Shown: positions 3,114 to 17,908, counted from the stretch's first letter. The stretch is 17,908 bases of DNA from Deltaproteobacteria bacterium (GCA_016183065.1 JACPFF010000010.1:1-17908); one strand, 5' to 3'. Made by a program: numbers and translations. The notes: generated from the letters alone by a model not told the origin.

Positions 3114-4015
3114 GGCTGCTCCTCGAGAAACTTCACGAGGAGATCGACAAAGCGGTCCGGCTCTTCGAAATGGGGATAGTGGCCTGAACCGGGCAATATG
3201 GCATAGGGCACGCCGGCCGATATTGGGGGAGTTTCGCCGCCCATCAGGAAATCATGAAAGCCATTCACGAGAAGTACGGATGTCGGCAGCGCGCGAAAGT
3301 CAAATTCCCCGAGTGGCCCCGTCATTTGATATAAGCTGTCGGCAACCGCCCGCATGACAGTGTCATTTTCTTTGACTGCGCTCTGCTGTTTCACACCTTC
3401 GTACCACTGCATGGCCTCGAGGTTTCCCCAATAGAAGCGGTTTCTTTTCTCTCGGAACCGCATCCGCGCGATGATCTCCCTGTGTGCCGCGAGGAATGGA
3501 TTGGTCTCTGTGCCAACGGTCGGTCTGATCTGTGCGTAATCATCCGGTTGGTCGAGTTTCAGCAGCAGCAAATCCATGAGGAGTGAGCGGACCCTGGAGA
3601 GTCGTTGATCAAGCGCCCGCCCGACAAACACGGCCTTTCTCACCAACTCCGGATGTTGTCGCAACGTGTCGTAAAGGAGCCAAGAGCCGTAACTGTGCCC
3701 CAGGAGTGCAATCGGTGCGGTATCGTCGGTGGCTCCGAGTGTCCGCACAAGGGCTGCGAGGTCGTCAATATTCCCCTGATGGCTCACAGACGCGGAGGGA
3801 CCGCTGCGGCCACAGCCGCGCTGATCGTAACACACCCAGCCATACGGCATTCGCTCGTGGTACGCGGGAAAGGTCGTGAGGGCCGCTTCAAAGTAGGCAC
3901 TGTGGCTGCCTGGGCCACCGTGGACGAACAGGATATGTCCTTTCGAGCCACACTCCGGTGTGTAGGTCGTCATGTACAGTCCGTGCATTGTTCTGTATGC
4001 AACGCGCAATGCCAT
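3110..4015 (-). CDS. Alpha/beta hydrolase, prolyl aminopeptidase-like (S33 type)
   Basis: A 301-residue alpha/beta hydrolase. The oxyanion-hole motif HGGPG is at 32-36, the DQRGCGRS signature of proline iminopeptidases at 64-71, and the nucleophile elbow GHSYG at 106-110 (Ser108). The likely catalytic Asp255 lies in NGFHDFL and His279 in GSGHYPHFEEP. Length and motif order match the family, which removes N-terminal proline from peptides or hydrolyses amides and esters; the substrate cannot be told from sequence. No signal peptide is visible, so it should be cytoplasmic. The start is supported by GGAGGA (4020-4025) six bases upstream. Its stop overlaps the start of the binding-protein kinase by ATGA, so the enzyme and the sensor are co-translated. 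It may process, release or degrade the compound the sensor detects. Confidence 0.88.
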   Translation of the reverse strand: MALRVAYRTMHGLYMTTYTPECGSKGHILFVHGGPGSHSAYFEAALTTFPAYHERMPYGWVCYDQRGCGRSGPSASVSHQGNIDDLAALVRTLGATDDTAPIALLGHSYGSWLLYDTLRQHPELVRKAVFVGRALDQRLSRVRSLLMDLLLLKLDQPDDYAQIRPTVGTETNPFLAAHREIIARMRFREKRNRFYWGNLEAMQWYEGVKQQSAVKENDTVMRAVADSLYQMTGPLGEFDFRALPTSVLLVNGFHDFLMGGETPPISAGVPYAILPGSGHYPHFEEPDRFVDLLVKFLEEQP

Positions 4016-4550: not shown

Positions 4551-5795
4551 ATGCCACGCGTTGCTTCCTTCATCGTCCACCTCCTCCTCACCACGATCAC
4601 CACGATCGCGATCAGTGGTGGAAACATTCGTACGGCGTCTGCGTATCCCGACGCGAAAATCACCTCCGTCGCACCAACGGCACTCGACGGGCCCGCGCAT
4701 CACGGACTGCTGGTGCATCTGGCGCCGATCTCCGACGCCAACCTGACGCGCTATCAGATCCAGATCAAGCCGGATTCCGATCTCCTCTATCCCCCGTGGA
4801 TGTTTTACAACGCGCAGGTCCCCCCGTTTGGACAGGTCCTCGCCATTCCCTATCGCAATGCGAAGCTCGCGCTCACGACCGACACGAAGTACTGCGTGAA
4901 AGTCCGCGCCATCTTTGGCCCCACCGCCACGGCATGGGACACGGCCTGCGGACTGGCCCTGGTGCTGCCGGCCATCACGGCCGGCGACACGGACGGGGAC
5001 GGGCTCACCGACAAAAAAGAGTACGCCCTCGGTCTTGACCCGAACAATCCCGATAGTGACGGCGACGGGATTCCCGACGGCACCGAGGTCGACGGACAGA
5101 CCGATCCTACCAAGCCGCTCTTCCCGCTCCTCATGGTCGCAGCGACCGAGCTCGACTTTGGCGTGGGGAATGCCTTCGGGCTCTATCCGCACCAACATCA
5201 GGTGATTGAAGTCATCAACAATGGCGATGATACCGCGTGGATCGACGACGTTGTCGTGGGAGAGGGTTCGCCGCCCGACGCCGCGGCCGCCTTTCAGCTG
5301 GGGCCCTTTCCGAACTTTCTCTCCCATATTCCGCCGTATCACATCGCCCGTATTCCGATCTCGTTTTTGCCGAAACAATCGGGGCCACTCTCGGCAGTCG
5401 TCATGATTACGTCGTCGAATCTCGAACCGTTGCCGCCCATCACCGTCACAGGCATTGGCGCGGAGATGCCGCACTGCACGGTGACCCCGACGACGCTCGA
5501 TTTTGGGACCGTGCAGGCCGATGACCAGGGAGTCTTCACGAAGACGATCACCATCACCAATGCCCCGGCAGATCCGGCGTTGCCGTACTCGGAGGTGCCG
5601 TTTGGCTTTACGATCACCACCACGCATGTCGGCATGGCCCCGGGACTGCGCGGGACGCGGCTGGCGCCGGGCGAGAGCATCCAGGTGCCGGTCCTCTTCC
5701 AGCATAGCACGCCGGGCACCTACGACAGTTACTTGTACGTCCGTTCGTTCCATTGTGGCGAGCAGACCGTGCGACTCTACGGAAAGGCGTTGTAA
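4551..5795 (+). CDS. Secreted or surface protein with TSP3 repeat and two ASH-type domains
   Basis: A 414-residue exported protein. A signal peptide (MPR, hydrophobic core to about residue 22, likely cleavage after TASA near 31) fixes the start at 4551; an upstream in-frame extension to 4431 would bury it. Residues 35-140 resemble a fibronectin-III-like fold. Residues 145-185 hold a thrombospondin type-3 calcium-binding repeat (DTDGDGLTD, DSDGDGIPDG). Two beta-sandwich domains of the ASPM-SPD2-Hydin type follow at about 196-303 and 306-414, each opening with an LDFG motif (TELDFGVG, TTLDFGTV). No ribosome binding site is seen, which fits the short leader predicted from the promoter; GTG at 4548 is an alternative start. 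It is first in a three-gene operon whose other members are also envelope or secreted proteins. Its role is probably structural or adhesive; no catalytic motif is seen. Confidence 0.85.
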   Translation: MPRVASFIVHLLLTTITTIAISGGNIRTASAYPDAKITSVAPTALDGPAHHGLLVHLAPISDANLTRYQIQIKPDSDLLYPPWMFYNAQVPPFGQVLAIPYRNAKLALTTDTKYCVKVRAIFGPTATAWDTACGLALVLPAITAGDTDGDGLTDKKEYALGLDPNNPDSDGDGIPDGTEVDGQTDPTKPLFPLLMVAATELDFGVGNAFGLYPHQHQVIEVINNGDDTAWIDDVVVGEGSPPDAAAAFQLGPFPNFLSHIPPYHIARIPISFLPKQSGPLSAVVMITSSNLEPLPPITVTGIGAEMPHCTVTPTTLDFGTVQADDQGVFTKTITITNAPADPALPYSEVPFGFTITTTHVGMAPGLRGTRLAPGESIQVPVLFQHSTPGTYDSYLYVRSFHCGEQTVRLYGKAL

Positions 5796-5797
5796 CG

Positions 5798-7150
5798 ATG
5801 GTGGATCCTGCCGTGTCATTGTCGGGAAGTGCTGGCTGGTCGTGGCTGCGCCGTCTCGAGGAACTCGCCCCGTACGAGACCGACTACGCCATGACCGAGC
5901 TCACCCTCGGGATGGAGTGGGCCGAGGCCATCGGGGAAGAGGTCGTTGTGGGACCGGTAGTGGAAGTCAGCTACGGGTTTCTCGGCGGCACGGACGAGAA
6001 TCGCGGCTCCCATCGGCATCACCTCATGGCCCGCGGCGGCGGACGGCTGCGACTGTTCGATCTCCTCTTTCTCGATCTGAAGGCCGGGGCCGGTGGCGCA
6101 ATGAATGCCCTCGACTTCGGGAAGGGCTTTCCCCTCCCCACGGAATACACCGTCAACGTGCAGGGACAAGTCAGCGTCGGCGGGATGATCTGTCTCGGTT
6201 CGGGGCTCTGTCTCACGCCCCTGGTCCAGTACACGCAGGACATGGCCGTGACCGACCCCCTCTACACGGTGGGCGCCGTGCAGTGCGGGTTCCACCTCGG
6301 CGGGCACACGAGTGGTGAGACGGATCACGCGGCGGCGGAAACGCCACTGCCGGGCACGGTCGCACCCCATGTGGAGTTGGTTGAGCGCGTCGTGCCAATG
6401 GGCTCCCGTCTCCGGACGCCAGAACCAGAGAGCACGCCGTACATCCGATTCCCACCGACGTTCCCGCCATCGTCCGCGGCCCCACTCTTTCCCGGCCCCC
6501 CGATCCTCTTTGCCAACGACAATCCTGACATCGACCTGCGCCCCGCGTGGTATGAGGCCCATGGCCAGGAGATGTCCGAGTGTCTTGCGAGTCCCACATT
6601 GGACGACTATGCGTGGCGGATCGACCGCTGCCTGGCGGCGCTGCACACATCGCATCGCGACGTACGCCTGACGCTCCGGGTACAGGGCTATGCCAACGAT
6701 TATGGGAGTCCCGAACATAATGCGAGGCTCCCCTGGGCCCGCGCACAAAATGTCATCGACTATTGGACCCGGCGCGGTCCGATCAGTCGCCTCAAGGAGA
6801 TCGTTCCGGAAGACTATGCCACCCGCCGCCAACAAATACAGGACCGCATGGGGATCGATATCGAGACACTGACCCGGAATGACACCTGCGGGACACACGA
6901 TCGGACGGGGCGGAAATATTTCCTTCTGACGTCGCACCTCAACAGCGGTCGTCTCACGATCATCAACGATACGCCCGAAATAATCGCCGATGTCGGAACC
7001 CTCGTCCGTCGAGACTTTGGCGCCCATGTCGATGCGGGCCGACCAGAATTTCGCCGCGTGGAAGTGCGCGTGGAAGTAACGATCGACGGACAACCGCTCT
7101 CACCGACCAAGACCGGGGCGTTGCTCACCCACTGTGGAGGTCCGTCATGA
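5798..7150 (+). CDS. OmpA-like protein, beta-rich N-terminus plus OmpA C-terminal domain
   Basis: A 450-residue protein. Residues 30-170 alternate like outer-membrane beta strands (VVGPVVEVSYGFLGG, LDLKAGAGGAMNAL, VQGQVSVGGMI). A Pro-rich linker follows at about 180-235. Residues 238-430 look like an OmpA/MotB peptidoglycan-binding domain: LTLRVQGYAND, then GSPEHNARLPWARAQNVIDYW, ending in FRRVEVRVEV. About 70 residues are inserted between the helix and the last strand, so the domain is larger than usual. The start at 5798 lies two bases after the preceding stop, with GGAAAGG at 5781-5787. A start at 5753 would overlap the upstream gene. No signal peptide is visible in this frame, which is odd for a porin-like protein. 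The gene overlaps the next by ATGA at 7147-7150. It probably anchors the outer envelope to peptidoglycan. Confidence 0.75.
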   Translation: MVDPAVSLSGSAGWSWLRRLEELAPYETDYAMTELTLGMEWAEAIGEEVVVGPVVEVSYGFLGGTDENRGSHRHHLMARGGGRLRLFDLLFLDLKAGAGGAMNALDFGKGFPLPTEYTVNVQGQVSVGGMICLGSGLCLTPLVQYTQDMAVTDPLYTVGAVQCGFHLGGHTSGETDHAAAETPLPGTVAPHVELVERVVPMGSRLRTPEPESTPYIRFPPTFPPSSAAPLFPGPPILFANDNPDIDLRPAWYEAHGQEMSECLASPTLDDYAWRIDRCLAALHTSHRDVRLTLRVQGYANDYGSPEHNARLPWARAQNVIDYWTRRGPISRLKEIVPEDYATRRQQIQDRMGIDIETLTRNDTCGTHDRTGRKYFLLTSHLNSGRLTIINDTPEIIADVGTLVRRDFGAHVDAGRPEFRRVEVRVEVTIDGQPLSPTKTGALLTHCGGPS

Positions 7151-8964
7151 CACGCATGGTGCGTCTGCTCCTGTTGTTGCTACTGCTCTGTGCGCACTCC
7201 GCCATGGCCGCCACCACTCTGCTCGTCACATCCGTCTCTGACGTCCAGGGAGAAGGGACGCTCCGTACGATCCTCCACTATGCCTGCGATGAACCTGGCA
7301 ATGAACTGATCCAATTCGACAAGACCCGACTCAGTGAACTGCGGGTCATGCTCACCGGACCCTTGGTGATCCCCGAAGATTGTCAGGGAACGGTGACACT
7401 CGATGGCGCCAACGCCGTCGAGGCCATCCTCGATGCCTCCAACTTTGAACCGACGGGGGAACGACCAGGTGATCTCTGCACGCTGAACATCTACTCCACG
7501 GAGCATGTCGTGCGAAACTGGACCTTTGTGGGGAACAGCACGGGCGCCGGCGTCTGTCTGTTTGGGCGTGCCAACACCGTCGAAACCAATTGGTTCGGCC
7601 AGGAGTGGTCTGGCACCATCAACGCCAATCGGTATGGCATCATTATTCATAATGCCTTTGCCGGACATAGCAGTGTCATGACGGCCGCCAACAACACCAT
7701 CCAGGTCAACCGCATTGTCCGTTCGGATGGGGTGGGGCTCATCGATCTGGGGACGAAGAATGTCCTCTATCACAACGAGATCCGCGGGAGTGCCGAGCAT
7801 GGCGTCTGGTTGCAGGGAGTCGGGACCCAACTCACGCGCAATACCATCGTGGCCAACGGTGGCTGTCCACCGGCATCGCAGGCGCTCCCGTCGCAATCGG
7901 CCGGCTGTCATCCGGGGGGCACCGGCACGGGGAGCGGGATCTATGTCGCCAAGGGGGCCAAAAAAATCACCGTGGGCGGCCAGAATGAGGAGAGCCACAA
8001 GAACACGCTCCAATATAATATGGCCGGTGGCATCGTGTTGGAGGATTCCGCGACCATTGGCAGCATCATGATCACACACAATCGCATCTCCAACAACTAC
8101 GGCAATGATGGATCGGGGATCGACCTCGGGGACGACGGCATCACGATGAATGATTTTGACGATCTCGACAGCGGACCAAACCGACGTTTCAATTATGCAG
8201 AACATCTCCAGGCCTTCCCCCTGGTGAACGGGCCCGGCAAGACGGAGCGCTACTGGACCTGGGGCTGGGCTCCGGGGGCCGACCGCGTCGAGCTCTACCA
8301 TCTCTCTGCGGACGATCAATCCCGCGAGCTGACCCATGGCGGTGGGCACCTGTGGCTCACCGATCGCGAGATGTCGCCGCAGGGGTTCTCGCTCCATCCA
8401 CTCGTCTTTACCTTGAACAGTGGCGATGTGCTGGCGCATCTGGCCTTCGACAGTGACAAAAACAGCTCGGAGTTCGGCTGGAACCTGCACGTCGGCGCCG
8501 ATGCCGATCTGGATGGCATCCTCGACGACGACGAGACCGGAAAGGGGTCCGCCAGTACACAGAGCAGCTCACCGCAACAGGTCGATACCGATGACGACTT
8601 GCTTCCCGACAGCGTGGAAGATTTCTCGCGCAATGGCGTGTGGGACGCGGATCTTGGCGAAACCGCGGCGTATCTCGCCGACTCGGATGGTGATGGGCTC
8701 AACGATTGGGCCGAAACCCATGGCGATGGCGGGTACGATTCCCCGTTTGACACGAACCCGCTTGCGCCGGACACCGACGGTGATGGCCTCCTGGACGGCG
8801 AAGAAGATGCGAACAACAACGGCATCTGGGACGCCCATCTCGGCGAGAGCAATCCGCGCACACCCGACTCCGACCTCGACAGCTACCTCGATGGCGAAGA
8901 CACCTGCCCCGCCCTCTACAACCCCGGGCAGGAAACGTGGTATTGTGACGCGGGGGGATGGTAA
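7147..8964 (+). CDS. Secreted right-handed beta-helix protein with C-terminal TSP3 repeats
   Basis: A 605-residue exported protein. A strong signal peptide (MTRMVR, poly-Leu core, cleavage after HSAMA near residue 22) follows GGAGG at 7136-7140. Residues about 90-350 are parallel beta-helix repeats (PbH1/NosD type), with recurrent short strands such as HNEIRGSAEHGVWLQG, TRNTIVANGG and THNRISNNYGNDGSGIDLG. The C-terminus (about 485-600) carries several calcium-binding TSP3 motifs (DADLDGILDDDE, DSDGDGLNDWAE, DTDGDGLLDGEE, DSDLDSYLDGED). Such proteins are often carbohydrate-active or surface scaffolds; no catalytic residues can be assigned. It is the last gene of the operon starting at the -24/-12 promoter. 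All three proteins are exported or envelope-type and two share TSP3 repeats, so they may act together at the cell surface. Confidence 0.85.
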   Translation: MTRMVRLLLLLLLLCAHSAMAATTLLVTSVSDVQGEGTLRTILHYACDEPGNELIQFDKTRLSELRVMLTGPLVIPEDCQGTVTLDGANAVEAILDASNFEPTGERPGDLCTLNIYSTEHVVRNWTFVGNSTGAGVCLFGRANTVETNWFGQEWSGTINANRYGIIIHNAFAGHSSVMTAANNTIQVNRIVRSDGVGLIDLGTKNVLYHNEIRGSAEHGVWLQGVGTQLTRNTIVANGGCPPASQALPSQSAGCHPGGTGTGSGIYVAKGAKKITVGGQNEESHKNTLQYNMAGGIVLEDSATIGSIMITHNRISNNYGNDGSGIDLGDDGITMNDFDDLDSGPNRRFNYAEHLQAFPLVNGPGKTERYWTWGWAPGADRVELYHLSADDQSRELTHGGGHLWLTDREMSPQGFSLHPLVFTLNSGDVLAHLAFDSDKNSSEFGWNLHVGADADLDGILDDDETGKGSASTQSSSPQQVDTDDDLLPDSVEDFSRNGVWDADLGETAAYLADSDGDGLNDWAETHGDGGYDSPFDTNPLAPDTDGDGLLDGEEDANNNGIWDAHLGESNPRTPDSDLDSYLDGEDTCPALYNPGQETWYCDAGGW

Positions 8965-8967
8965 GGG

Positions 8968-8996
8968 TTGTATGTTTCATTTAATTATATTATAAT
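8968..8996 (+). promoter_or_regulatory. Housekeeping-type promoter for the AbiE pair
   Basis: TTGTAT (8968-8973), a 17-base spacer and a consensus TATAAT (8991-8996). The transcript would start near 9003, just before the ATG at 9005, giving a leaderless or nearly leaderless message. The -10 box sits at the centre of the palindrome, so a protein bound there would block transcription. The -35 match is weak (three of six). Confidence 0.5.
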
Positions 8997-9011
8997 ATAA
9001 TTAAATGAAAC
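8974..9011. repeat. 38-base perfect palindrome over the AbiE promoter and start codon
   Basis: The left arm GTTTCATTTAATTATATTA (8974-8992) is exactly complementary to 8993-9011. It is entirely AT-rich apart from the outer GTTTC/GAAAC ends. It contains TATAAT (8991-8996) at the centre and the ATG of the antitoxin gene (9005-9007) in the right arm. AbiEi antitoxins repress their own promoter by binding inverted repeats, so this is the likely operator. A terminator role for the upstream operon is less likely: the stem has almost no GC and no T-tail follows. Confidence 0.75.
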
Positions 9012-9598
9012 TTCGAGATTTCCGAAAACAGATGAAATTATCAATATTTACTAACGATGAGGCCGCTCGCGTAGCCTGGAAAACATCACCGGCCACACTC
9101 GCATTGCAGCTCCACCAGTGGGAAAAACACGGGGATCTGGTCCGTGTGCGCCGTGGTGTATACGCCTTTCCGGAGTCCATGACGGACTGCTCAGCCATTG
9201 CCCGCATTCTCTATCCCCCTGCCTATATCAGCCTCGAAAGTGCGTTGCATCACTATGGACTGATGCCCGACGTCGTTTTTGCCGTAACGCTCATGACGCC
9301 CCGTGGCACGCGACGTTTCCGCACACCCTTCGGGCCTTTTATCTACCACCATTGCAAAAAATCCCTCTTTTGGGGATACGATCCCGATACGCTCATGGCA
9401 CACCGGGAAAAAGCGCTGGTCGATTATTGTTATTTGTATCGCCATCGCCTGCAACCACACATCGCCTGTTGGGAAGCACTCCGTTGGCAACATTTGGAGA
9501 GCGTCAATTTTCGCCTGGCCAGAGCGTACAGTAAAAAAACAGGGATCGACACAGTGCGTGAGCTCGTGAAGTCATTGGCACAATATGGAACGACTTAA
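9005..9598 (+). CDS. abiEi: AbiEi-type antitoxin (type IV toxin-antitoxin), autoregulatory
   Basis: A 197-residue protein of the AbiEi antitoxin family. An N-terminal winged-helix domain reads SIFTNDEAARVAWKTSPATL then LHQWEKHGDLVRVRRGVYAF. An antitoxin domain follows with AYISLESALHHYGLMPD, VTLMTPRGTRRFRTPFGPF and AHREKALVDYCYL, which are typical of the family. In type IV systems the antitoxin does not bind the toxin; it represses the operon and opposes the toxin's effect. The gene overlaps the toxin gene by 14 bases. No ribosome binding site precedes the ATG at 9005, which lies inside the palindrome. The in-frame ATG at 9032 (MKLSIFT) is an alternative start and would leave a short leader. 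Its base composition looks more AT-rich than the neighbouring operons, which suits acquisition by transfer. Confidence 0.85.
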   Translation: MKLRDFRKQMKLSIFTNDEAARVAWKTSPATLALQLHQWEKHGDLVRVRRGVYAFPESMTDCSAIARILYPPAYISLESALHHYGLMPDVVFAVTLMTPRGTRRFRTPFGPFIYHHCKKSLFWGYDPDTLMAHREKALVDYCYLYRHRLQPHIACWEALRWQHLESVNFRLARAYSKKTGIDTVRELVKSLAQYGTT

Positions 9599-10409
9599 AC
9601 AGCTGATTCAGGCAGAGCGATCGGGAAAAGCGCGCACGACCGACGTGCACCTGCTGAATCTCGTGCGGGAATACCTGCAGGTGCTGGTCCTCAAGATCAT
9701 GTTTCAACACAAGGCGGGTGCCGCGCTCTCCTTCATGGGTGGGACATGCCTCCGTATCTGCTATGATTTCAAACGATATTCAGAGGATCTGGATTTTTCT
9801 CTCGATGCGCCACAACGGCCGTACGATTTTGCCCGCCTGATGCAACAAGTCCAAACGACACTTGAGCACCGGGGATTTACTGTTGACCTCACGCATCATG
9901 ACGAGAAAATTGTCCAGAAGGCCTTTTTCCGATTTCAGGAATTTCAGCAGATGTTGCATTTGCGCCAGTTCCGTACAGAACAAAAATTACACATCAAGAT
10001 CGAGGTCGATGTGCAGCCTCCACCCGTGGACGAAGACGACCGTGAAAGTTTTTTTGTCACACGCTTCCAAGAAATCTTTCCGATCCTGAAACACACACTC
10101 TCGACCTTGTTTGCTGGGAAACTGCTGGCGATATTTGATCGCCCCTACGCCCGCGGTCGCGATTATTACGATCTCATGTGGTACTTGAGTCAAAAAACCC
10201 CGATCAACCTTCCCTATCTGAACCGGGCAGTAAAGCGGCAGCCCTTTGTTTCTGAGACCGATGTTTTCGCGGCGCTGACGGAAAAGATTCGCGCGGTCAA
10301 CCCAGCACTCATTCTGAAAGATATCGATCGCTTTTTAGAAGATCCTTCAGAGGTCACCTGGATTCGACACTATGAGCAACTTTTCTCGCAACTCGTTGCG
10401 GGACGGTGA
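9585..10409 (+). CDS. abiEii: AbiEii-type nucleotidyltransferase toxin
   Basis: A 274-residue protein of the AbiEii/AbiGii toxin family (DNA polymerase beta-like nucleotidyltransferase). The diagnostic block is SFMGGTCLRICYDFKRYSED followed directly by LDFSL at about residues 49-73, with the paired acidic residues of the active site in EDLDFSL. IKIEVDVQPP supplies a further catalytic acidic position. A later LFAGKLLAIFDRPYARGRDYYDLMWYL is the conserved KL..AxxxR.xxRDxYDL segment of the family. Known members add nucleotides to RNA targets such as tRNA or inhibit growth in related ways; the target here is unknown. The ATG lies inside the antitoxin gene, so expression is coupled. It ends at 10409, 36 bases from the convergent ATP-grasp gene. 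Confidence 0.88.
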   Translation: MERLKQLIQAERSGKARTTDVHLLNLVREYLQVLVLKIMFQHKAGAALSFMGGTCLRICYDFKRYSEDLDFSLDAPQRPYDFARLMQQVQTTLEHRGFTVDLTHHDEKIVQKAFFRFQEFQQMLHLRQFRTEQKLHIKIEVDVQPPPVDEDDRESFFVTRFQEIFPILKHTLSTLFAGKLLAIFDRPYARGRDYYDLMWYLSQKTPINLPYLNRAVKRQPFVSETDVFAALTEKIRAVNPALILKDIDRFLEDPSEVTWIRHYEQLFSQLVAGR

Positions 10410-10445: not shown

Positions 10446-11627
10446 CTACGCGTCCATCTCCACCGTCATGAGGTTCGGCGCCATCACCGCATGCTCCCGC
10501 AACTCCTCGGGCGAACGGGCGGCGTAGACGACGACACCGCTCATCGCGACCGACGAGTCCTCATGGGCAATCTCATCGCCCGCCGCAACGAACACCTTGG
10601 ATTCGATAATCCATGGGTGATCAAAATCAGTCGTCACACGGGTTACACGCCCGGTCTTTTTGGGATAGAGATAATAGCCGCAATAGCGATCTGCCAGTTC
10701 CAACGGGACCCGCGGCGCGTCTTCTGTGGCAATCAGCATCCGCAAGTAGAGGTCCATGATACTTTCACCTGCCATATGGGATTCCGTGGGGATCTGATAG
10801 CCGCCGGGCAATCGGCATCCGATCTCCCCGAACGTCCATCCCTCGGTCGTATGAAAAAATTCGCAATGGCAAAAACCGTCCCGAATGCCTGCCGACGCGA
10901 TAAATTGCCGCGCCATCTCTTTCATGACCGCACGCTCCGACTCGGGAAGAAATCCCGGAAAGTTGACCCCATACCCTGCGTGCTTCTGGTTGGATTCCAG
11001 ACAGGACACCGTATATTCGCCAGGGAATTGTGCGAACACACGGCCGTCACTCACGAGCGTATCGCAACAATATTCGCGCATCCGCGGCAGATAGGCCTCG
11101 GCATAATAGTCCTCGACATGCGGCGTCTCTCCCCTCCAGCGTGCAAATGTCGCCTCATTGTCGATGAGCGTGATATGGCGCGCCAGCATCCCTTTGCGTG
11201 GTTTCACAAGAAATGGTGCGGCGCACCTGTCAGCAATCGCCCCCCAGGACGCCTGGCGATCGAGACGCGTAAAGCGGGTCGTCGCGATCCCTACACGCTG
11301 CAAGTGCTGCTTCAGCAACACTTTGTCCCGCACGAGCGCCGCCTGCTCCCGACGCAATCCCGGCAACTGCGGTGCATAGGCCTCCCGCACGGCCGCGGCA
11401 AAGCTCACGTAGTATTCGCTGCAATTCACCAGTCCCACGATCTGCGAAAAATCGAGGGCTTTCAACAATCCCGTGTCGGCCTGTTCTGCTCCCTCTTCTT
11501 CAACACAGATCCACTGCCGGCACCCCTCAGGACAGCGTCCATGCACGACAACCGGTTCGTAACCCATCGCCCGCACATGGTGCACGACATTCCATTTGTT
11601 GCCGAAGATCACCACGTGGCGTTTCAT
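10446..11627 (-). CDS. ATP-grasp ligase (carboxylate-amine ligase type)
   Basis: A 393-residue ATP-grasp enzyme, complete. The N-terminal preATP-grasp fold (HVVIFGNKWNVVHHVRAMGYEPVVV) is followed by the entry helix RRE-QAALVRDKVLLKQHLQRVGI. The ATP-binding strand is FLVKPRKG (Lys142), the central strand includes DYYAEAYLPRMREYCCD, and the metal/ATP residues lie in FCHCEFFHT and FGEIGCRLPGG (Glu268, Arg272). This order is that of enzymes that activate a carboxylate as acyl phosphate and join it to an amine or other nucleophile. The closest functional analogy is with dipeptide or modified-peptide ligases; substrates cannot be read from sequence. Its ATG overlaps the kinase stop (ATGA, 11624-11627) and GAGGTGG precedes it. 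It is the last gene of the leftward operon that begins at the radical SAM gene. Confidence 0.82.
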   Translation of the reverse strand: MKRHVVIFGNKWNVVHHVRAMGYEPVVVHGRCPEGCRQWICVEEEGAEQADTGLLKALDFSQIVGLVNCSEYYVSFAAAVREAYAPQLPGLRREQAALVRDKVLLKQHLQRVGIATTRFTRLDRQASWGAIADRCAAPFLVKPRKGMLARHITLIDNEATFARWRGETPHVEDYYAEAYLPRMREYCCDTLVSDGRVFAQFPGEYTVSCLESNQKHAGYGVNFPGFLPESERAVMKEMARQFIASAGIRDGFCHCEFFHTTEGWTFGEIGCRLPGGYQIPTESHMAGESIMDLYLRMLIATEDAPRVPLELADRYCGYYLYPKKTGRVTRVTTDFDHPWIIESKVFVAAGDEIAHEDSSVAMSGVVVYAARSPEELREHAVMAPNLMTVEMDA

Positions 11628-13495
11628 ATGACCACCTCGAGCGATCCCATGAATTCTTTTCCAATCATGGGAATCGCATGCTGTTGCGCAAACTGTTGTA
11701 CGGCCGGCGCTGACCAGTCGTTCGTCACCAAATGACTTCTCCGATCCGTCCGTGTCGAAATATATTGCGCCCCGAGTCCATATTCACGACCAAAATTATT
11801 ATCGATCAGCAACAACTCGCGTTCCGCAGAATGATCGGGAATTTCAGACGGATGCCCATATTCGACAATTGGCAGCAAATACGGTGCCAGCTTTGTCCTC
11901 CACTCGGTACGGCATGCCGATTCATCATCGACGAGCACGATGCGCGATATGGCTCCCAGATGGAGCTGTTCCACTCCCCATCGCGGTGCCTTGCAACGCG
12001 GAATCTGCATCGTCACCTGCGTCCCACGACCCGGCCGCGACGTGAGCGCAATCGTCCCGCCAAACGACTCGACGGTCGTCTTGGCCTGAAAGAGTCCAAA
12101 ACCGGTCCCTCCCTGCTTCCCAAGGGAGACGCCGCGATCAAAGACCTTTGCGACATATTCTGGCGGAATGCCTATGCCGGTATCCGACACCGTGATTGTC
12201 ACGAACTCTCCCGCAGATTGCACCGCGATGACGACAGGCTGCCCTGTCGGCGATGCCTCGATGGCATTGTTGACGACATTGGAGAATGCCCGAAGTAGTG
12301 AGGAGTAGGAGCCCATGATCCAGCATGATTGCAATGGTGAGGCCCCAGTAAGCATGCGACCGGGATGCTCTCGCTCTTTTTCGAGCAGGAACAATCGCAA
12401 TGCACAATGTAACGGAATATAAATCTGTTCTGCCGGAAAAGCCGCGGCCCCACTCCGTGAAAGATCTTCAACGATCATTTGCATCCGCTTGGTGACATGA
12501 CCCAAGAGCACACGACCCTGTGGAGAGGATTCCTGCTGCATGAACGCCCTGATCGTCGCCAGTGGGCTCTGAATATCGTGCCGGATCCCGCGGATAACTT
12601 CCTGCATCCGCACATATTGCTCCACCTGGCATTGCAGCGCATCCCGTTCGGCTTTCGCGGCCATCATTTTCTTCGCCACACTGAAGGCGCACCAAAATAA
12701 TGCCCCTTCAACCAGCAGGAATCCGATCAGCAAGGAGACCATTCGCGTGCAGAGCGCGGCAGCAGGAAAAGAGATCTGCAACGCGACCCCCTTTCCCAGG
12801 GGCATTTCATGGTGCAGCAACGCAGCGTTTTTTTTGAATTGCGGATAGGATCGCTCCCCAAGCTTCACTGCAAGCTGAATCCGGGGAAAGAAAAAAGTCC
12901 CTTCATCAGAGGATGGCGAGACAGTCTGCACATGTTCAACAGGGAATGCAAACCCCATATAGGCACGCCGATCGGGCGAGACAAACTGCCGTGCATGGGG
13001 GACATCGATCAGACAGAGCCATGGGGCTTCCGCAATGGTGCAATGGTGTAATGAGGTTCCCGTCGCATACGCTACGCCGTGCATCATGCCGGGGACCCTG
13101 AGGTCGCCGAAATCGCGAAGCACCTGACCATGATAGAGGGCCAGTGGCGTTGCACCCGTATTACTCCGCAGGAAAAAGTAGCTCCGCTGCGCACCAAAGA
13201 CGACGTGCAGCATATGATCTGTGATCAGCATATGATCTGTTAAGAGTGCCATGACTGCCCCACTCACATGGTTCTTGCGTCCCAGTTCATGCTCATATCG
13301 TCCCACGACCCATCGCGCACTGTGCAGGCGATGGACAAAGGGTTCCAATGATTGAAAAAAATCCACACGACGTTCTTCGAGTTGGCCTGCCAGATATCGC
13401 GATGCGAATGCGAAATACCCTGCAATAAAGAGTACCATCGAGGAAAGCGCAATCATACAGAGACGACATCGCCATACCTTGGCATATGTCACCAT
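11624..13495 (-). CDS. Membrane histidine kinase with C-terminal receiver
   Basis: A 623-residue hybrid kinase. Membrane helices at about 10-32 and 251-272 enclose a sensor domain of roughly 215 residues. The cytoplasmic part has the H-box IRHDIQSPLATIR (His306), an N-box NVVNNAIEA (N406-N410), DTGIGI at 438-443, a GTGFGL G2 box and GRGTQVTMQIP. A compact receiver at about 517-620 keeps Asp523/Asp524, Asp565 (LLLIDNN), Thr591 and Lys613; it is somewhat short and divergent. The start at 13495 is chosen because GAGGAG precedes it at suitable spacing; an extension to 13549 would run back into the upstream gene. It begins five bases after the predicted lipoprotein ends. The layout (two membrane helices, kinase, receiver, no DNA-binding domain) parallels the kinase at 88-1947. 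It probably senses a signal presented by the lipoprotein. Confidence 0.88.
   Translation of the reverse strand: MVTYAKVWRCRLCMIALSSMVLFIAGYFAFASRYLAGQLEERRVDFFQSLEPFVHRLHSARWVVGRYEHELGRKNHVSGAVMALLTDHMLITDHMLHVVFGAQRSYFFLRSNTGATPLALYHGQVLRDFGDLRVPGMMHGVAYATGTSLHHCTIAEAPWLCLIDVPHARQFVSPDRRAYMGFAFPVEHVQTVSPSSDEGTFFFPRIQLAVKLGERSYPQFKKNAALLHHEMPLGKGVALQISFPAAALCTRMVSLLIGFLLVEGALFWCAFSVAKKMMAAKAERDALQCQVEQYVRMQEVIRGIRHDIQSPLATIRAFMQQESSPQGRVLLGHVTKRMQMIVEDLSRSGAAAFPAEQIYIPLHCALRLFLLEKEREHPGRMLTGASPLQSCWIMGSYSSLLRAFSNVVNNAIEASPTGQPVVIAVQSAGEFVTITVSDTGIGIPPEYVAKVFDRGVSLGKQGGTGFGLFQAKTTVESFGGTIALTSRPGRGTQVTMQIPRCKAPRWGVEQLHLGAISRIVLVDDESACRTEWRTKLAPYLLPIVEYGHPSEIPDHSAERELLLIDNNFGREYGLGAQYISTRTDRRSHLVTNDWSAPAVQQFAQQHAIPMIGKEFMGSLEVVI
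13208..13243 (-). repeat. In-frame 18-base tandem duplication in the kinase sensor domain
   Basis: Two adjacent 18-base units (13208-13225 and 13226-13243) share the first 15 bases, CAGCATATGATCTGT on the plus strand. In the protein this gives TDHMLITDHML at about residues 86-96 of the sensor domain. It keeps the frame and looks like a recent slippage duplication. Confidence 0.7.
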
Positions 13496-13500
13496 GTTGT

Positions 13501-14460
13501 TCACTCCTCTCGACAGAGGGCCATATAGGCAGGCCACTGCGTCAGACATCCCATGGTACAGACATACTGCGCTCGCGTCATTGTCAACCGGCCCTGCACA
13601 ACATCACGGCAGTCCGTACCAAGCGATGATTCGAGCGCAGCAAGCTGCGTCATATCGACCAAGTCGCCCATTGCTTCCCACGAAGCGTCTTGTGCAACAC
13701 GTTTCGGCATGTCAAGCGACTGTTGTTGGTACAAGAGCTCCCGCGCACTTTCCGAGCGATAATAGGCAAACAACACGGCCTTTTTCCCGCCGATCATCTT
13801 TTCGAATTGCACGAATTGACTCCGATGGCGATCCGAAATGCCGTCCAGCCGGAGATCCATGGCCACGACGAGATAATCGCGACAGTGCGCACATTTCAGC
13901 GCCTTCGAATAGATCACGATTTTTCCCGTGCCATTGATATCGTCCCGAATGCCAGACCAAACGCCATGCGGCAGCTGCGCGACAGCCCCGTGATAAAAAT
14001 AAAACGACTCAAAGGCCATGTCCGGACCGAAGAGTGCATACGTATTCGTTTGAGGATAAAGGCGCGTGGCCTTTGTGGCATTGTCATAGACGTACATCCA
14101 GCTGATGTAGTGGGTCCGCTCATATAACGCCTTCCATTCCTCATCGAATTGCGCGGTCACCTCGGCCAAACAATTCAGCGCAGTGCCGCGCACTGCAGAC
14201 TTCGGGACATAGAAGCTGCTCTGTGATATCACATGATCATACGATGCGCAGTGCGCCTGCGGGTCATACCGTTCCAGCAGCAATGCCGTCTCGCGGTCGA
14301 CCACCGTCTGAATGGTGAGGAGGGCCTTGTGAAAGTCCTCTAACAGGGACTGATGGGTGCGACGCTGCGCATTGTCCACGGCCGCATGATTTGCGCACGC
14401 CATAACGCAGAGGGAGAGCAGGAAACCGGTCCACACGACTGTATGCCTACTCCACTTCAT
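13501..14460 (-). CDS. Cys-rich predicted lipoprotein, possibly a solo Cache-like sensor
   Basis: A 319-residue predicted lipoprotein. The signal (MKWSRH, hydrophobic core) ends in VMAC, so Cys22 would carry the lipid; Met at -2 is not ideal. A long helix at about 30-65 and then WMYVYDNATKATRLYPQTNTYALF resemble Cache/PAS-like periplasmic sensor domains, which often start with a helix and a strand describing a Y-x-Y-D turn. The mature part has nine Cys: 22, 71, 97, 190, 193, 284, 301, 305 and 316. CAHC at 190-193 and CTMGC at 301-305 suggest disulfides or a metal or cofactor site. No kinase or enzyme motif is present. It sits between the MFS gene (14-base overlap) and the kinase (five bases), so I infer a ligand receptor or co-sensor for that kinase. 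The fold assignment is tentative. Confidence 0.6.
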   Translation of the reverse strand: MKWSRHTVVWTGFLLSLCVMACANHAAVDNAQRRTHQSLLEDFHKALLTIQTVVDRETALLLERYDPQAHCASYDHVISQSSFYVPKSAVRGTALNCLAEVTAQFDEEWKALYERTHYISWMYVYDNATKATRLYPQTNTYALFGPDMAFESFYFYHGAVAQLPHGVWSGIRDDINGTGKIVIYSKALKCAHCRDYLVVAMDLRLDGISDRHRSQFVQFEKMIGGKKAVLFAYYRSESARELLYQQQSLDMPKRVAQDASWEAMGDLVDMTQLAALESSLGTDCRDVVQGRLTMTRAQYVCTMGCLTQWPAYMALCREE

Positions 14461-15634
14461 AGCGTACCCGCCTTTTCAGTGCCACCAGCGCAAGACAGGA
14501 AACGGTGGCCGCCAAGCCGAGCAAAACACTATTCACCAAGGCATTGGTGGTCACCAATGAATACCGCTTCAAGAGAAAGAGGGGCATCAATGCCCCAAGA
14601 AAGATGGCCAACCGATAGAGAATCCGATATTGGAGATTGTACAAGGGATACTGTTGCTGCGCGGTCCGTCGCATCAGATGGTAATTCGAGAGCGTTTCCA
14701 AAATCACCATCACAAACGCGACCAGGCCAATCTGCACACTCATCAGCAGTAATCCCGTGCCGAATGCCCCGACACTCCCGAAGGCGACAATGAGGATCGC
14801 ACTCGACAGGATGATGGCACTCATGAGTACAGAGAGGTGTAGCAGTCGCGCGACCACTTTGCGAGCCAGCAATGTCCCGAGGACATGCCCGATATAGATC
14901 ACCCAGATCAGCGTAGGAGAGATGCCCAGGCCCGTGGTCAACAAGGGATACTCGATCCCCATGAACGCCCCCACGCCCAGTGCCGAGACCATCACCCAGA
15001 ACCACGACAGGAGCCCAAACGTGTGGACCATCCTGGTCATCTGCGCACCCTGCAGCTGGGGACCTGTTTCGGTTGGCACGCACACGGCTGCCCCATTGGA
15101 CTGCAACAGATAAAACGTCACGGCAGCAATCAGATAGGTCGCGGCATCGATCAGAAACACCAGGTCGAAACGCCCGACTCCACCGAGATAGGCCCCCAAT
15201 GATCCGCCAAAGACCATGATGAAAAATCGAATCGCGACCACATCGGCGACAATCTTTTTTGCAGTCTCCGACGGGTAGCGCTGCTTCACATGCACGTTCA
15301 CCAGGATCTGCACAGACTCCTTAATGCACGCCAGTACCAGCGCCACCACCAACACATGCGGATACACCGTGGCCTTCAGTAGCGACAACACCGCACACAT
15401 CCCGACGACACTCAATCCCACCAGCTGCCGTGCCGGATACCGCTGACGCGCCACCCAGTAACGGGAGAACACAAACATCAGGAGTGGCGGAATACAGTAG
15501 GCGACGTAGACTGCCACGACTTTCCCATTCGACCCGAACCGTTTGGCAAATTCGTAGAGCCCGATGAGACTGCAATAATCACCAAAATAGGTGACAAACA
15601 GCGCGCTGCGGAGCATGGTTTCCAAGCGTCGCAT
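14447..15634 (-). CDS. MFS transporter, likely exporter
   Basis: A 395-residue major facilitator protein with about 11-12 hydrophobic helices, from ALFVTYFGDYCSLIGLYEFA to the final LGLAATVSCLALVAL and a basic tail. The start at 15634 (MRRLETMLRSALF) follows the radical SAM stop by 13 bases and has an excellent ribosome binding site (GGGGAGGGG about six bases upstream). In the assembly this frame runs in from the upstream gene without a stop, giving a false 802-residue fusion. The length, start signal and topology all support a separate protein. The general pattern resembles the drug/siderophore efflux branch of MFS. Encoded between a modifying enzyme and sensor genes, it probably exports the product of the pathway. 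Confidence 0.85.
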   Translation of the reverse strand: MRRLETMLRSALFVTYFGDYCSLIGLYEFAKRFGSNGKVVAVYVAYCIPPLLMFVFSRYWVARQRYPARQLVGLSVVGMCAVLSLLKATVYPHVLVVALVLACIKESVQILVNVHVKQRYPSETAKKIVADVVAIRFFIMVFGGSLGAYLGGVGRFDLVFLIDAATYLIAAVTFYLLQSNGAAVCVPTETGPQLQGAQMTRMVHTFGLLSWFWVMVSALGVGAFMGIEYPLLTTGLGISPTLIWVIYIGHVLGTLLARKVVARLLHLSVLMSAIILSSAILIVAFGSVGAFGTGLLLMSVQIGLVAFVMVILETLSNYHLMRRTAQQQYPLYNLQYRILYRLAIFLGALMPLFLLKRYSLVTTNALVNSVLLGLAATVSCLALVALKRRVRYEVE

Positions 15635-15647
15635 CCGTCCCCTCCCC

Positions 15648-16780
15648 TTACACCGGTGTCTGCTGTCGCGCCACACACTTTTCCTGCCATCGTTGCCGGC
15701 AGAGAGACCCCTGCAGGCACTTTCCCGACGCATCTGACGAAAATAGGCATTAAAATATCGCGCACCAGGAGAGACGAGGGTCTGCGTCGGTCCCAGAAGA
15801 GTGTCTTCGGCCCTCGGTTCAATGGCAATCCCTGGCGACAGCCGGTCACCAATGAGGATCATCTCGCCAAATTGTCGCGAGGCACAGCGCCATTCTCCGG
15901 AGGCAAAGAGGTGCCGGAAGGCCTCAGCGTCCGTGGGGGAGAGAAGTTCCGCCATGGCAACGGGATTGTTATGAGCATTCCCGCTCAGCAAGAGGGGTTC
16001 GGCAAAGAGGGCAAACCGTTGATCAAGACACGTCGGAAGGATGTTGTCGCGAAATTCTGCAATATTGCGTTTGGTCACCAGACATTGCAACCCGGCATGG
16101 TGTGCCACCGTCTCGTGCAAGATGGCAAAGGCCTGCGGCACCTGCATGCCCCCGTAGCGGGCATACGGATAGTGATTGCTGCTGGAGACACCCACCATCG
16201 CACTCGCCTTGGCCGCATCGCTCGACCAGCATTTGACATACCAATAATGCGGCATCTGTCCAACACGCGAGAGCAACTCACCGCACGACATGTGCAGGAT
16301 GCGCTGGCAGAGACGTTCATCGACAAATATTGATCCATTCGTAAAAACGACGGCTGGAAGACCGAGATGCGTCTGATAGTCCATGAGCGTCCAAAAATCT
16401 TTCAGGAGCGTGACTTCGCCAAGTCCCACAATGTAACTGTATCGAATCCCGCGCTGCACGGCCCAATCTGTCACCTCCTGCAACAATGGTAACGCCAACG
16501 GACGCGCTTGCATCCCCTTGGTATAACAATAATTCGGACAACGAAAGTTGCAGCGATAGGGACCGAGTAGGAGTGTGAGGCGTTCCAGAAGTGGACCACA
16601 TGTCAGTCGATCAATTTCGGCCATCGTGACGTCACCGCATTCCAGCTGTGCGTCGATCGCCGCGATGCGCTCGCGCATGGTAGTCCGCTCGCGCGACGAC
16701 ATGACCTGCACCGGAAAAATCAGCTCGTCCGCTGTGGGGTATTCAATGGTTTTCGATTCCTGTTTCTTGGGCATGGGCAT
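15648..16780 (-). CDS. Radical SAM enzyme with probable auxiliary Fe-S cluster (frameshifted near 15721)
   Basis: About 377 residues if one missing base is restored. The cluster motif is PYRCNFRCPNYCYTKG, Cys77/81/85, which is C-x3-C-x3-C instead of the usual C-x3-C-x2-C. VGLGEVTLL at about 118-126 matches the GGE segment. After RQMRRE the correct frame continues as KCLQGSLCRQRWQEKCVA and ends at 15648 (TAA). Cys355, 361 and 369, with Cys299 in GEWRCASRQFG, would supply a second cluster, as in SPASM or twitch proteins that modify peptides. No activator or substrate peptide gene was found. The start is ATG at 16780 or 16774. A longer in-frame TTG start at 16855 would cross the -24/-12 promoter. 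It is the first gene of the operon with the exporter, sensor lipoprotein, kinase and ligase. Confidence 0.8.
15720..15727 (-). other. Frameshift site in the radical SAM gene
   Basis: On the minus strand the coding frame runs to CGT CGG GAA and then needs one extra A in the GGGAAA run (as GAA AAG TGC). The restored frame gives a Cys-rich tail with C-x5-C-x7-C and a stop at 15648, and leaves the MFS gene with its own ribosome binding site. Without the added base the frame reads a Ser/Arg-rich segment of no known type into the MFS gene. Confidence 0.8.
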
Positions 16781-16795
16781 AGGTATGTTCGGATT

Positions 16796-16815
16796 TAAGC
16801 AAAATATAGGCCAAT
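16796..16815 (-). promoter_or_regulatory. Sigma-54-like (-24/-12) promoter of the radical SAM operon
   Basis: On the minus strand TTGGCCTATATTTTGCTT. The GG (16811-16812) and GC (16799-16800) are exactly 10 bases apart, with TTGC at -12 and TTGGC at -24. The -24 side is less perfect (TGGCCT). The start of transcription is predicted near 16788, which leaves 8-14 bases before the ATG at 16780 or 16774. This short spacing is the same as at the other -24/-12 promoter. Confidence 0.5.
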
Positions 16816-16872
16816 ATTGAAGATAAGATAAGTTGTTGATATCACTTATTTGCAAAAGAGATCACTTTGAAT

Positions 16873-16921
16873 ACTGTTCAACATTCAGAACACTGACTGT
16901 TCTAAATCCCGAATTTAGAAC
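16873..16921. promoter_or_regulatory. Cluster of inverted repeats, candidate activator binding sites
   Basis: A 9-base perfect inverted repeat GTTCTAAAT (16899-16907) / ATTTAGAAC (16913-16921) with a 5-base spacer. Next to it, GTTC (16876-16879) pairs with GAAC (16888-16891). ACTGTTC occurs twice as a direct repeat at 16873 and 16896, 23 bases apart. The position 65-110 bases upstream of the -24/-12 promoter suits upstream activator sites. Reading it as a terminator of the ATP-grasp gene is possible but there is no T-tail. Confidence 0.5.
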
Positions 16922-16958
16922 ATGTCGGGGAATGCGCTTTTGCCCCCAATCCCGCGGA

Positions 16959-17908
16959 CTAATGCAGACCGGTCGCATGCGCCAACGCATCAACCAACTG
17001 GTCTGCGAGCAGACATGCCGCCTCCGGCGTATCGGCCCGCGCAATCAGATGGCCGAAATAGTCGTGGTTCGATTGCAGGGCGGGAAGGCATTCACCTGCA
17101 TCGCGATACACGACACATTCGGCGAGACCGTCGCCCCGTGCACGCTGCCAGGCGCCGAGATCGAAATGCGGCATAACCGACGGGACCGCACACCCGAGGA
17201 ACCGCGAGGTCACGGCCGTATGCCACGCTGGAGGCGACGCCGGCGGTTGGCCCAGAAAGATCGCAATCAAGAGTTCATAAATGTTGATACCACAGCCATG
17301 CCACAACATCCGTGGACCCGTTCCCCCGATCAGCCGCGGATTTGCCTCAATCAATCGCGGCCCATCCTTCGTCAGCATGATCTCGATATGAAAGATTCCA
17401 CGATCGAGCCCCAGGGCCTGCACCACGCGCACGGCATAGTCGCAGGTTGCCCGCGCTTCCGCCGCACTGATTGGGGCTGGCATCGTGGTTCCGAGTTCAA
17501 GCGCCTCGCATTTCTGATCCCGTTTCCGCTCGCCGATACCATAACAAACGTATCGCCCATCAGCAACGCCGAGTTCGACCGACAACATCCGCCCGACCAG
17601 ATATGTTTCAGCAAAATTCCGTGCGCCATCACCGTGCGATATGCTGCATCGAGCAGACCGAGACCGTCTCTGAACCGTTGATAGGCCGCATCGAGGTCCG
17701 CGTCGTGCCGAAGGACTTCCGCAAAAAAACTGGCCGTCCCTCCCTGTGGCTTGAACATCAAGGGATAGGAGAGCGCCCGTGCGTGCTCGCGCAACTCCCG
17801 CAGTGTCTCTCCGCAGCGAAATTGGACCGAAGGGACGTGAGACTCCTGCAGACGCGCACGGCATGCGGCCTTATCCCGTGCCAGCGCCACGGCCATGGGA
17901 TCCGTACA
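16959..17908 (-). CDS. ATP-grasp ligase (L-amino-acid ligase type), 5' end outside the window, frameshifted near 17615
   Basis: The 3' part of an ATP-grasp enzyme. The frame runs in from the window edge; the Met at 17896 is internal, since it sits in an entry helix (MAVALARDKAACRARLQES). The ATP strand is YPLMFKPQGGTASFF. After AHG near 17620 the frame shifts, and the rest reads NFAETYLVGRMLSVELGV, ALELGTTMPAPI, then FHIEIMLTKDGPRLIEANPR with the Glu and Asn ligands for Mg-ATP, ending in LADQLVDALAHATGLH. HIEIML...GPRLIEANPRLIGG resembles dipeptide-forming L-amino-acid ligases and carboxylate-amine ligases. It is a different protein from the ligase at 10446-11627. It lies upstream of the radical SAM operon on the same strand, so it may belong to the same pathway, but the sigma-54-like promoter separates them. 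Confidence 0.8.
17611..17620 (-). other. Frameshift site in the ATP-grasp gene
   Basis: On the minus strand the frame is GCG CAC GGA ATT TTG before the site and GCA CGG AAT TTT GCT after. One extra base in the GGAATTTT run joins MAHG to NFAETYLVG in one frame. Both halves keep strong ATP-grasp similarity, so this looks like a one-base deletion, not decay. Confidence 0.75.

Follow-up and report, generated by a model that had tools for sequence, protein, structure and literature searches.

We describe a run of six genes on one strand, transcribed from right to left in the order A2, rSAM-like gene, MFS, lipoprotein, hybrid kinase and A1, which we suggest makes and exports a small amide-type product and senses this product through its lipoprotein–kinase pair (a reading to which we give a probability of roughly 45%). 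The best explanation of the run is, in our opinion, that it forms a self-contained small-molecule signalling operon or a self-monitored secondary-metabolite operon. This explanation builds on the gene content and packing of the run, on the families to which its ligases and kinase belong, on the recurrence of the kinase with a receptor, and on the recurrence of ligase, radical SAM (rSAM) enzyme and exporter beside related kinases.

The window, meaning here the whole stretch of 17,908 bases that was analysed, is an entire contig (G000:C20) of the source genome G000, a 1.97 Mb MAG in 30 contigs that is 89% complete. A1 and the kinase gene overlap by 4 bases, the kinase and lipoprotein genes are separated by 5, and the lipoprotein and MFS genes overlap by 14. 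For these three junctions the tight packing described in the earlier note stands, but its 13-base gap between the rSAM-like and MFS genes is absent in the frame given. The frames of A1, kinase, lipoprotein and MFS are unbroken and have normal codon usage, and no DNA-binding output gene was found within the run. As the contig ends inside A2, the run may extend further upstream. Features are collected in Table 1.

Table 1. Positions of the operon genes, the Cys motif and the second kinase module in the window.
Feature	Position	Strand	Remarks
A1, ATP-grasp, L-amino-acid-ligase type, 393 aa	10446-11627	-	Last gene of the run; LAL_C2 E 9.5e-8
Hybrid histidine kinase, one C-terminal receiver, 623 aa	11624-13495	-	HATPase_c E 2e-23
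Predicted lipoprotein, lipobox VMAC	13501-14460	-	Receptor slot directly upstream of kinase; tentatively Cache-type
MFS transporter, putative exporter, 395 aa	14447-15634	-	MFS_1 E 1.6e-7, just under cut-off
Radical-SAM-like gene	15635-16780, possible stop 15648-15650	-	41% relative in G041
rSAM-like Cys motif CNFRCPNYC (CX3CX3C)	16526-16552	-	Alignment with G041 relative and DNA reading
A2, ATP-grasp, N-terminus past contig end	16959-17908	-	ATP-grasp_4 E 1e-6; LAL_C2 E 6e-7
Second kinase module	88-4015	-	Pfam matches and frame analysis

The second kinase module, on the left-hand side of the window, consists of an alpha/beta hydrolase (3110-4015), a Peripla_BP_6 receptor (about 1980-3113) and a hybrid kinase (88 to about 1990), and the receptor/kinase pair at 88-3113 appears to be joined or overlapping via an apparent one-base frame change near 1988. 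On the plus strand, three genes (4551-8964) encode large predicted surface proteins with DxDxDG repeats of the calcium-binding type and weak matches to CglD, choice-of-anchor D and OmpA-like proteins. An AbiEi/AbiEii-type toxin–antitoxin pair (9005-10409, plus strand) is located between these genes and the operon.

LAL_C2 is above the Pfam cut-off in both A1 and A2, and the two enzymes are predicted to join amino acids, possibly into dipeptides. With a profile of A1 and its relative, solved L-amino acid ligases rank first (4wd3, E 2e-11, and also BL00235), and A2 matches the dapdiamide synthase DdaF type (E 7e-11). Ligases of the A1 type are very rare: the one close relative, in G044, is 44% identical over the full length, a search of 385 genomes added one distant genome only (G371, E 3e-28), and ATP-grasp searches of plasmids gave only distant matches of about 24%. 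A match to housekeeping enzymes had been named as an outcome that would speak against the proposal; both enzymes fall with the L-amino acid ligases in their matches, and the A1 type is so rare that we do not regard them as housekeeping enzymes. The second ATP-grasp gene noted upstream is indeed present, but it is frameshifted (one base, near 17.55-17.61 kb, where the codon frame switches) and cut by the contig end. A partial copy of A2, 269 bases long and 94.8% identical, is found at the edge of another contig of G000 (C27:1-269), and this repeat may account for both contigs ending there.

For the rSAM-like enzyme a single relative was found across all collections searched, on a G041 contig that is public as JAHJDR010000139.1 (a marine MAG); a contig scan with an rSAM profile returned this contig only, plasmids gave no match and 385 genomes added none. 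The relative has a CX3CX2C motif, compared with CX3CX3C in the window copy, and because the CX3CX2C motif of the radical SAM superfamily is absent from the window copy we call the enzyme rSAM-like. Pfam Radical_SAM matches are weak (E 0.048 for the window enzyme and 0.009 for the relative), and these, together with matches to the mycofactocin maturase (E 3e-4), a viperin model (E 3e-6) and SkfB (E 0.09), all lie below the curated cut-offs where such cut-offs exist. An AlphaFold2 model from a two-row alignment had a mean pLDDT of 34. Six Cys are common to the enzyme and its G041 relative, of which three lie beyond the motif, and the auxiliary cluster that had been assigned to the enzyme was not demonstrated. 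We rejected a viperin reading, for which the PADLOC match was only partial (residues 101-182), NCBIfam gave no viperin match and the viperin-family cut-off was not reached. An anti-phage reading of the operon was also considered and found to be unsupported.

The rSAM-like and MFS genes form one open frame of 777 aa (14447-16780) with no stop between them. Codon scores fall in this shared frame at about 15.72-15.66 kb and climb in the neighbouring frame, which stops at the TAA at 15648-15650 and is followed by a GGGGAGGGG ribosome site and then by the MFS ATG at 15634. The codon scores, and the ribosome site preceding the MFS gene, lead us to consider a frameshift likelier than a true rSAM–MFS fusion, for which the EamA–rSAM-like fusion on contig C6 of G000 was weighed as a precedent. 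The frameshift was not called by a Viterbi analysis that must pay for two shifts. If the frame does change near 15.7 kb, the ancestral gene probably had the 13-base gap. Three apparent frame changes lie on this one contig (near 15.7 kb, at 17.55-17.61 kb and at 1988), and as all three share one sense, they could be consensus errors, and likewise decay.

The kinase has the phospho-acceptor His (H-box GIRHDIQSPL), the ATPase domain and the receiver Asp (receiver residues DD, D, T and K, read by eye) that define a hybrid histidine kinase, and it aligns with receiver-bearing paralogues. Its core is 34-38% identical to kinase-receiver-receiver proteins in G000. The sensor is a two-TM extracytoplasmic domain of its own, not matched to a family, and the N-terminal 280 aa have no convincing relative among the 46 genomes of the phylum.

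We read the lipoprotein as the receptor of this kinase because kinases of the family usually have a gene for a receptor or a transporter directly upstream. The only relative of the lipoprotein (C27:6600-7532, E 1e-8 in a local search) is encoded in the same genome, where its gene again immediately precedes that of a hybrid kinase. This paralogue matches Pfam VWA_N with E 9e-6 (26.7 bits versus a cut-off of 34.7) and aligns weakly with the Cache region of CaV alpha2delta; the window lipoprotein has no Pfam Cache or VWA_N match, and its AlphaFold2 model from a two-row alignment had a mean pLDDT of 32. Tentatively, we take a Cache-type domain as a lead, which comes from the sub-threshold VWA_N match of the paralogue, the weak alpha2delta alignment and the amino-acid preference of dCache_1 domains, for which amino acids are the commonest known ligand class (PMC4822843). 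The description of the lipoprotein as Cys-rich fits the C-terminal tail of the window protein, but this tail is absent from the sole paralogue. The occurrence of the lipoprotein and kinase mostly without the ligases had been given in the earlier note as grounds for abandoning the proposal, and this is half the case: the C27 pair is found without an intact ligase, and a ligase fragment is present 4 kb away.

The phylum was covered by 46 genomes, all from a single class, and genes in the neighbourhoods were called from codon usage by a simple caller. Co-occurrence of all six genes elsewhere, which had been proposed as a check and the lack of which had been named as a refutation, was not borne out: none of the other genomes searched has the set, and the lipoprotein turned up twice, both times in G000. 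The set is thus not conserved, since the rSAM-like enzyme and A1 each have a single relative, the lipoprotein is confined to G000 and the kinase sensor is without a convincing relative. The relatives of A1 and of the rSAM-like enzyme are in separate genomes (G044 and G041, of one family but different genera), each without the other. On one strand in G041, a kinase 3′ end is followed by a methyltransferase, a MATE protein and the rSAM gene; the contig opens with 134 bases that encode the last residues of a family kinase (ELAKEYFEQGFENIYLATGYSVEDFPNMPWIKGVVGKEPPFLVG, stop), the MATE gene stands where the operon has MFS, and there is no lipoprotein at this locus. The A1 relative in G044 has a 354-aa gene upstream and then, 1.6 kb away, a 28-residue C-terminal kinase remnant, with three further kinase remnants and several methyltransferases within 15 kb. 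Because both relatives adjoin kinase remnants or 3′ ends, we conclude that the A1 and rSAM types of enzyme have moved alongside the kinase family, which lends support to the idea behind the earlier note. The remnants on the G044 contig (C11) lie at 2870-2953, 11161-11412, 11585-11827 and 14833-14913, and two of the four comprise only 27-28 residues and share more than 92% identity with the end of an intact kinase, a pattern that recombination at the kinase 3′ end could produce. Another kinase remnant is found at G000:C15.

Hybrid kinases related to the query, the C12 kinase, occur in 11 of the 46 phylum genomes, with eight matches in G000, nine in G044 and five in G034, counts in which a few genes score twice because they are split in two. 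Two receivers are present in most of these kinases. Their cores are alike at the DNA level while the sensors are unrelated (86.8% identity over 1,480 bases for the C5 and C6 kinases of G000), and two G034 copies share 89.8% DNA identity over 1,031 bases, extending past the stop. The upstream gene is visible for 23 long kinases, and for 20 of them it is co-directional with the kinase and either overlaps it or lies within 50 bases of it. It encodes Peripla_BP_6, SBP_bac_5, NMT1 or MFS proteins or, in two cases, lipoproteins, and in some others a methyltransferase or a protein of no recognized kind. MFS genes are directly upstream of six kinases in the f5 genomes and two in G000 (C11 and C15), mostly with a 4-base overlap; the MFS of the operon shows no BLASTP relation to this MFS family. 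Small proteins of 66-83 aa resembling a lone HisKA helix pair are found near kinases (L033 11301-11504; L093 3425-3625; L094 8202-8453; L092 7766-7984); two adjoin NtrC-type regulators, and they are possible phosphotransfer partners.

The combination of ligase, rSAM enzyme and exporter beside a kinase of the family recurs, with non-orthologous genes, at two loci. One strand of G034:C86 carries, with small gaps, an MFS gene, the kinase, a KamA-type (lysine-2,3-aminomutase-like) rSAM gene, a LAL-type ATP-grasp gene and another MFS gene. On G000:C6 the kinase is followed by an AAA-type gene, a LAL-type ATP-grasp gene, a GNAT gene, an EamA gene fused to an rSAM-like domain, Peripla_BP_6 and, with a 4-base overlap where the contig stops, the start of a membrane-protein gene. 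The EamA–rSAM-like fusion (14615-16135), which adjoins ligase and Peripla_BP_6, has a degenerate motif, CNMRVGGC, with one Cys lost. Further combinations include a SPASM-type rSAM gene, MFS and kinase in this order on G000:C11, and on G000:C5 (3812-11226) a kinase followed by a Cys/Asp-repeat peptide (about 8564-9091), a SPASM rSAM gene, a fused peptidase and an S41 peptidase. Across these loci (C86, C6, C11 and C5), equivalent roles are taken by distinct protein families. The C5 SPASM enzyme is closest to maturases of Cys-rich peptides, and because of this module we conclude that RiPP chemistry occurs with kinases of the family. On G000:C9 (9183-12085) a LAL-type ATP-grasp gene lies downstream of another kinase, in the same orientation.

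Among 78 genes packed against the kinases, Pfam counts were nine for MFS_1 and four each for Peripla_BP_6, SBP_bac_5, Radical_SAM and LAL_C2, and none of these families reached two among 74 random control genes of the fetched loci. When the control was read in the way that favours enrichment least, one-sided Fisher tests gave modest values of 0.01 for MFS, 0.02 for binding proteins and 0.06 for rSAM plus ligase. We use this enrichment as supporting evidence only, because the tests were designed after the loci had been seen and because paralogues are not independent. Enzymes of catabolic or housekeeping appearance are also found near other kinases, namely a nucleoside hydrolase, a D-Ala-D-Ala dipeptidase and the menaquinone enzyme MqnE.

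In the mechanism that we propose, A1 and A2 would form ATP-dependent amide bonds between amino acids or amino-acid-like acids, the rSAM-like enzyme would modify a building block or the product, and the MFS protein would export the product. The lipoprotein, anchored in the periplasm where other kinases of the family have binding proteins, would capture the ligand and present it to the hybrid kinase, and the kinase would transfer phosphate from its His to the receiver that it carries, and from this receiver to a regulator encoded at a distance. From the gene families and their arrangement we infer the chemistry, the outward direction of transport, the partnership of lipoprotein and kinase, the identity of ligand and product, and the feedback. 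The unusual rSAM motif and the frameshift in A2 mean that part of the pathway may be missing or in decay.

Alternatively, the lipoprotein and kinase could respond to an outside cue, such as an amino acid, and induce the cell to make an antibiotic or metallophore-like amide that is secreted but not itself sensed. The lipoprotein seems closer to Cache sensors than to a receptor dedicated to an autoinducer, receptors of the family are also found beside apparently catabolic enzymes (e.g., the nucleoside hydrolase with an NMT1 binding protein), and the C27 lipoprotein–kinase pair exists without intact ligases, all of which is in keeping with control by a cue. The repeated pairing of synthesis genes and exporters, drawn from different protein families, with the kinase family is nevertheless easier to understand as a product-specific link, and the candidate cue remains hypothetical. 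We therefore regard such an arrangement as doubtful, though it deserves serious attention, and favor an operon that senses its own product.

Two other explanations concern the integrity of the run and the nature of the product. The locus might be a mosaic island, in which the kinase is a recently shuffled repeat element with changing and partly broken neighbours and no single function, and in which the operon is decaying. This would fit the 85-90% DNA identity of kinase cores between paralogues with unrelated sensors, the broken frames of A2, the left-hand kinase module and probably the rSAM-like gene, and the C-terminal kinase remnants across G044:C11 and at G000:C15. However, four of the genes (A1, kinase, lipoprotein and MFS) retain intact frames with normal codon usage, the short and overlapping junctions suggest that the operon is still used, and the three frame changes of one sense could be sequencing or assembly errors; we find a mosaic without function unlikely. 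The product could also be a ribosomal peptide, graspetide-like or rSAM-modified, the precursor gene of which lies past the contig end or was missed. The contig does end within A2, and the C5 module shows a kinase of the family together with a Cys/Asp-repeat peptide and a SPASM rSAM enzyme. Yet A1 and A2 are of the L-amino-acid-ligase type and not graspetide ligases, the run, of which 14.4-17.9 kb was also read directly, holds no small precursor-like ORF, and the rSAM-like enzyme has no SPASM match, making this the least probable of the explanations and one in which we place very little weight. The view of the earlier note, that the absence of a precursor points to a ligase-made rather than a ribosomal product, fits the lack of such an ORF in the run and the branch to which the ligases belong.

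A wider reading, which we put forward tentatively as possible, is that, in a lineage of an uncultured phylum, the hybrid-kinase core is a chassis for swapped receptor and synthesis cassettes, such that several private make-export-sense channels exist per genome. The operon would be one of these channels, its signal being made by the ligases, modified by the rSAM-like enzyme and received by a Cache lipoprotein. If this is true, a small genome could maintain numerous channels for chemicals of its own making, in which recombination joins the constant kinase core to exchangeable receptors, exporters and enzymes. A kinase core with packed enzymes would then serve as a search rule for undescribed signals of uncultured bacteria, and, with every module pointing to the synthesis genes together with the probable receptor, ligand discovery would become directly testable. 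Provided that the molecule made is the molecule sensed, the modules would amount to a swappable chemical-signalling kit.

Several known systems share parts of this arrangement. UhpB and UhpC represent the type in which a kinase and an MFS protein form a sensing pair. The other kinases of the family with MFS directly upstream are similar to this, whereas the MFS of the operon is unrelated by BLASTP to that MFS family and the lipoprotein lies between MFS and kinase. In the case of LuxPQ, LuxS is encoded elsewhere. The operon is like LuxPQ in having a separate periplasmic protein and a hybrid kinase, and several kinases of the family have Peripla_BP_6 directly upstream; it differs in that the partner is tentatively a Cache-type lipoprotein and the synthesis genes are in the same run. 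A1 and A2 are like RizA, BL00235, BacD and DdaF in their profile matches, including LAL_C2, at low identity, and we know of no rSAM gene or adjacent hybrid kinase in the clusters of these four enzymes. Graspetide clusters bring together ATP-grasp, rSAM and transport genes and are sometimes linked to kinase-like genes (PMC8939145); unlike them, the operon has no precursor peptide and its ligases are of another ATP-grasp branch.

In CqsA/CqsS and LqsA/LqsS an alpha-hydroxyketone synthase is encoded beside its cognate sensor kinase, and the cluster, in which CqsS is a hybrid kinase that carries a receiver, seems to move among bacteria (PMC3376566). As in these systems, synthesis genes and a sensor kinase adjoin in one cluster; a response of the kinase to the product would be a further parallel. 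The Cqs/Lqs systems have one enzyme and a diffusible lipid-like signal with no exporter and no separate receptor, whereas the operon, no protein of which is a relative of CqsA or LqsA, has two amino-acid ligases, an rSAM-like enzyme, MFS and a lipoprotein. Of the cross-genome conservation expected for a set of this type, what is shared is the pairwise association with the kinase family, the six genes being together only in G000. A short literature search, which is weak evidence of absence, gave no paper that joins ATP-grasp, rSAM and a sensor kinase as a signalling set. In conclusion, clusters of an enzyme with its cognate kinase and pairs of a receptor with a hybrid kinase are known already, and what we consider new, no precedent having been found in this short search, is one kinase core that is combined repeatedly, in sets of ligase, rSAM enzyme and exporter among others, with different receptors and synthesis genes.
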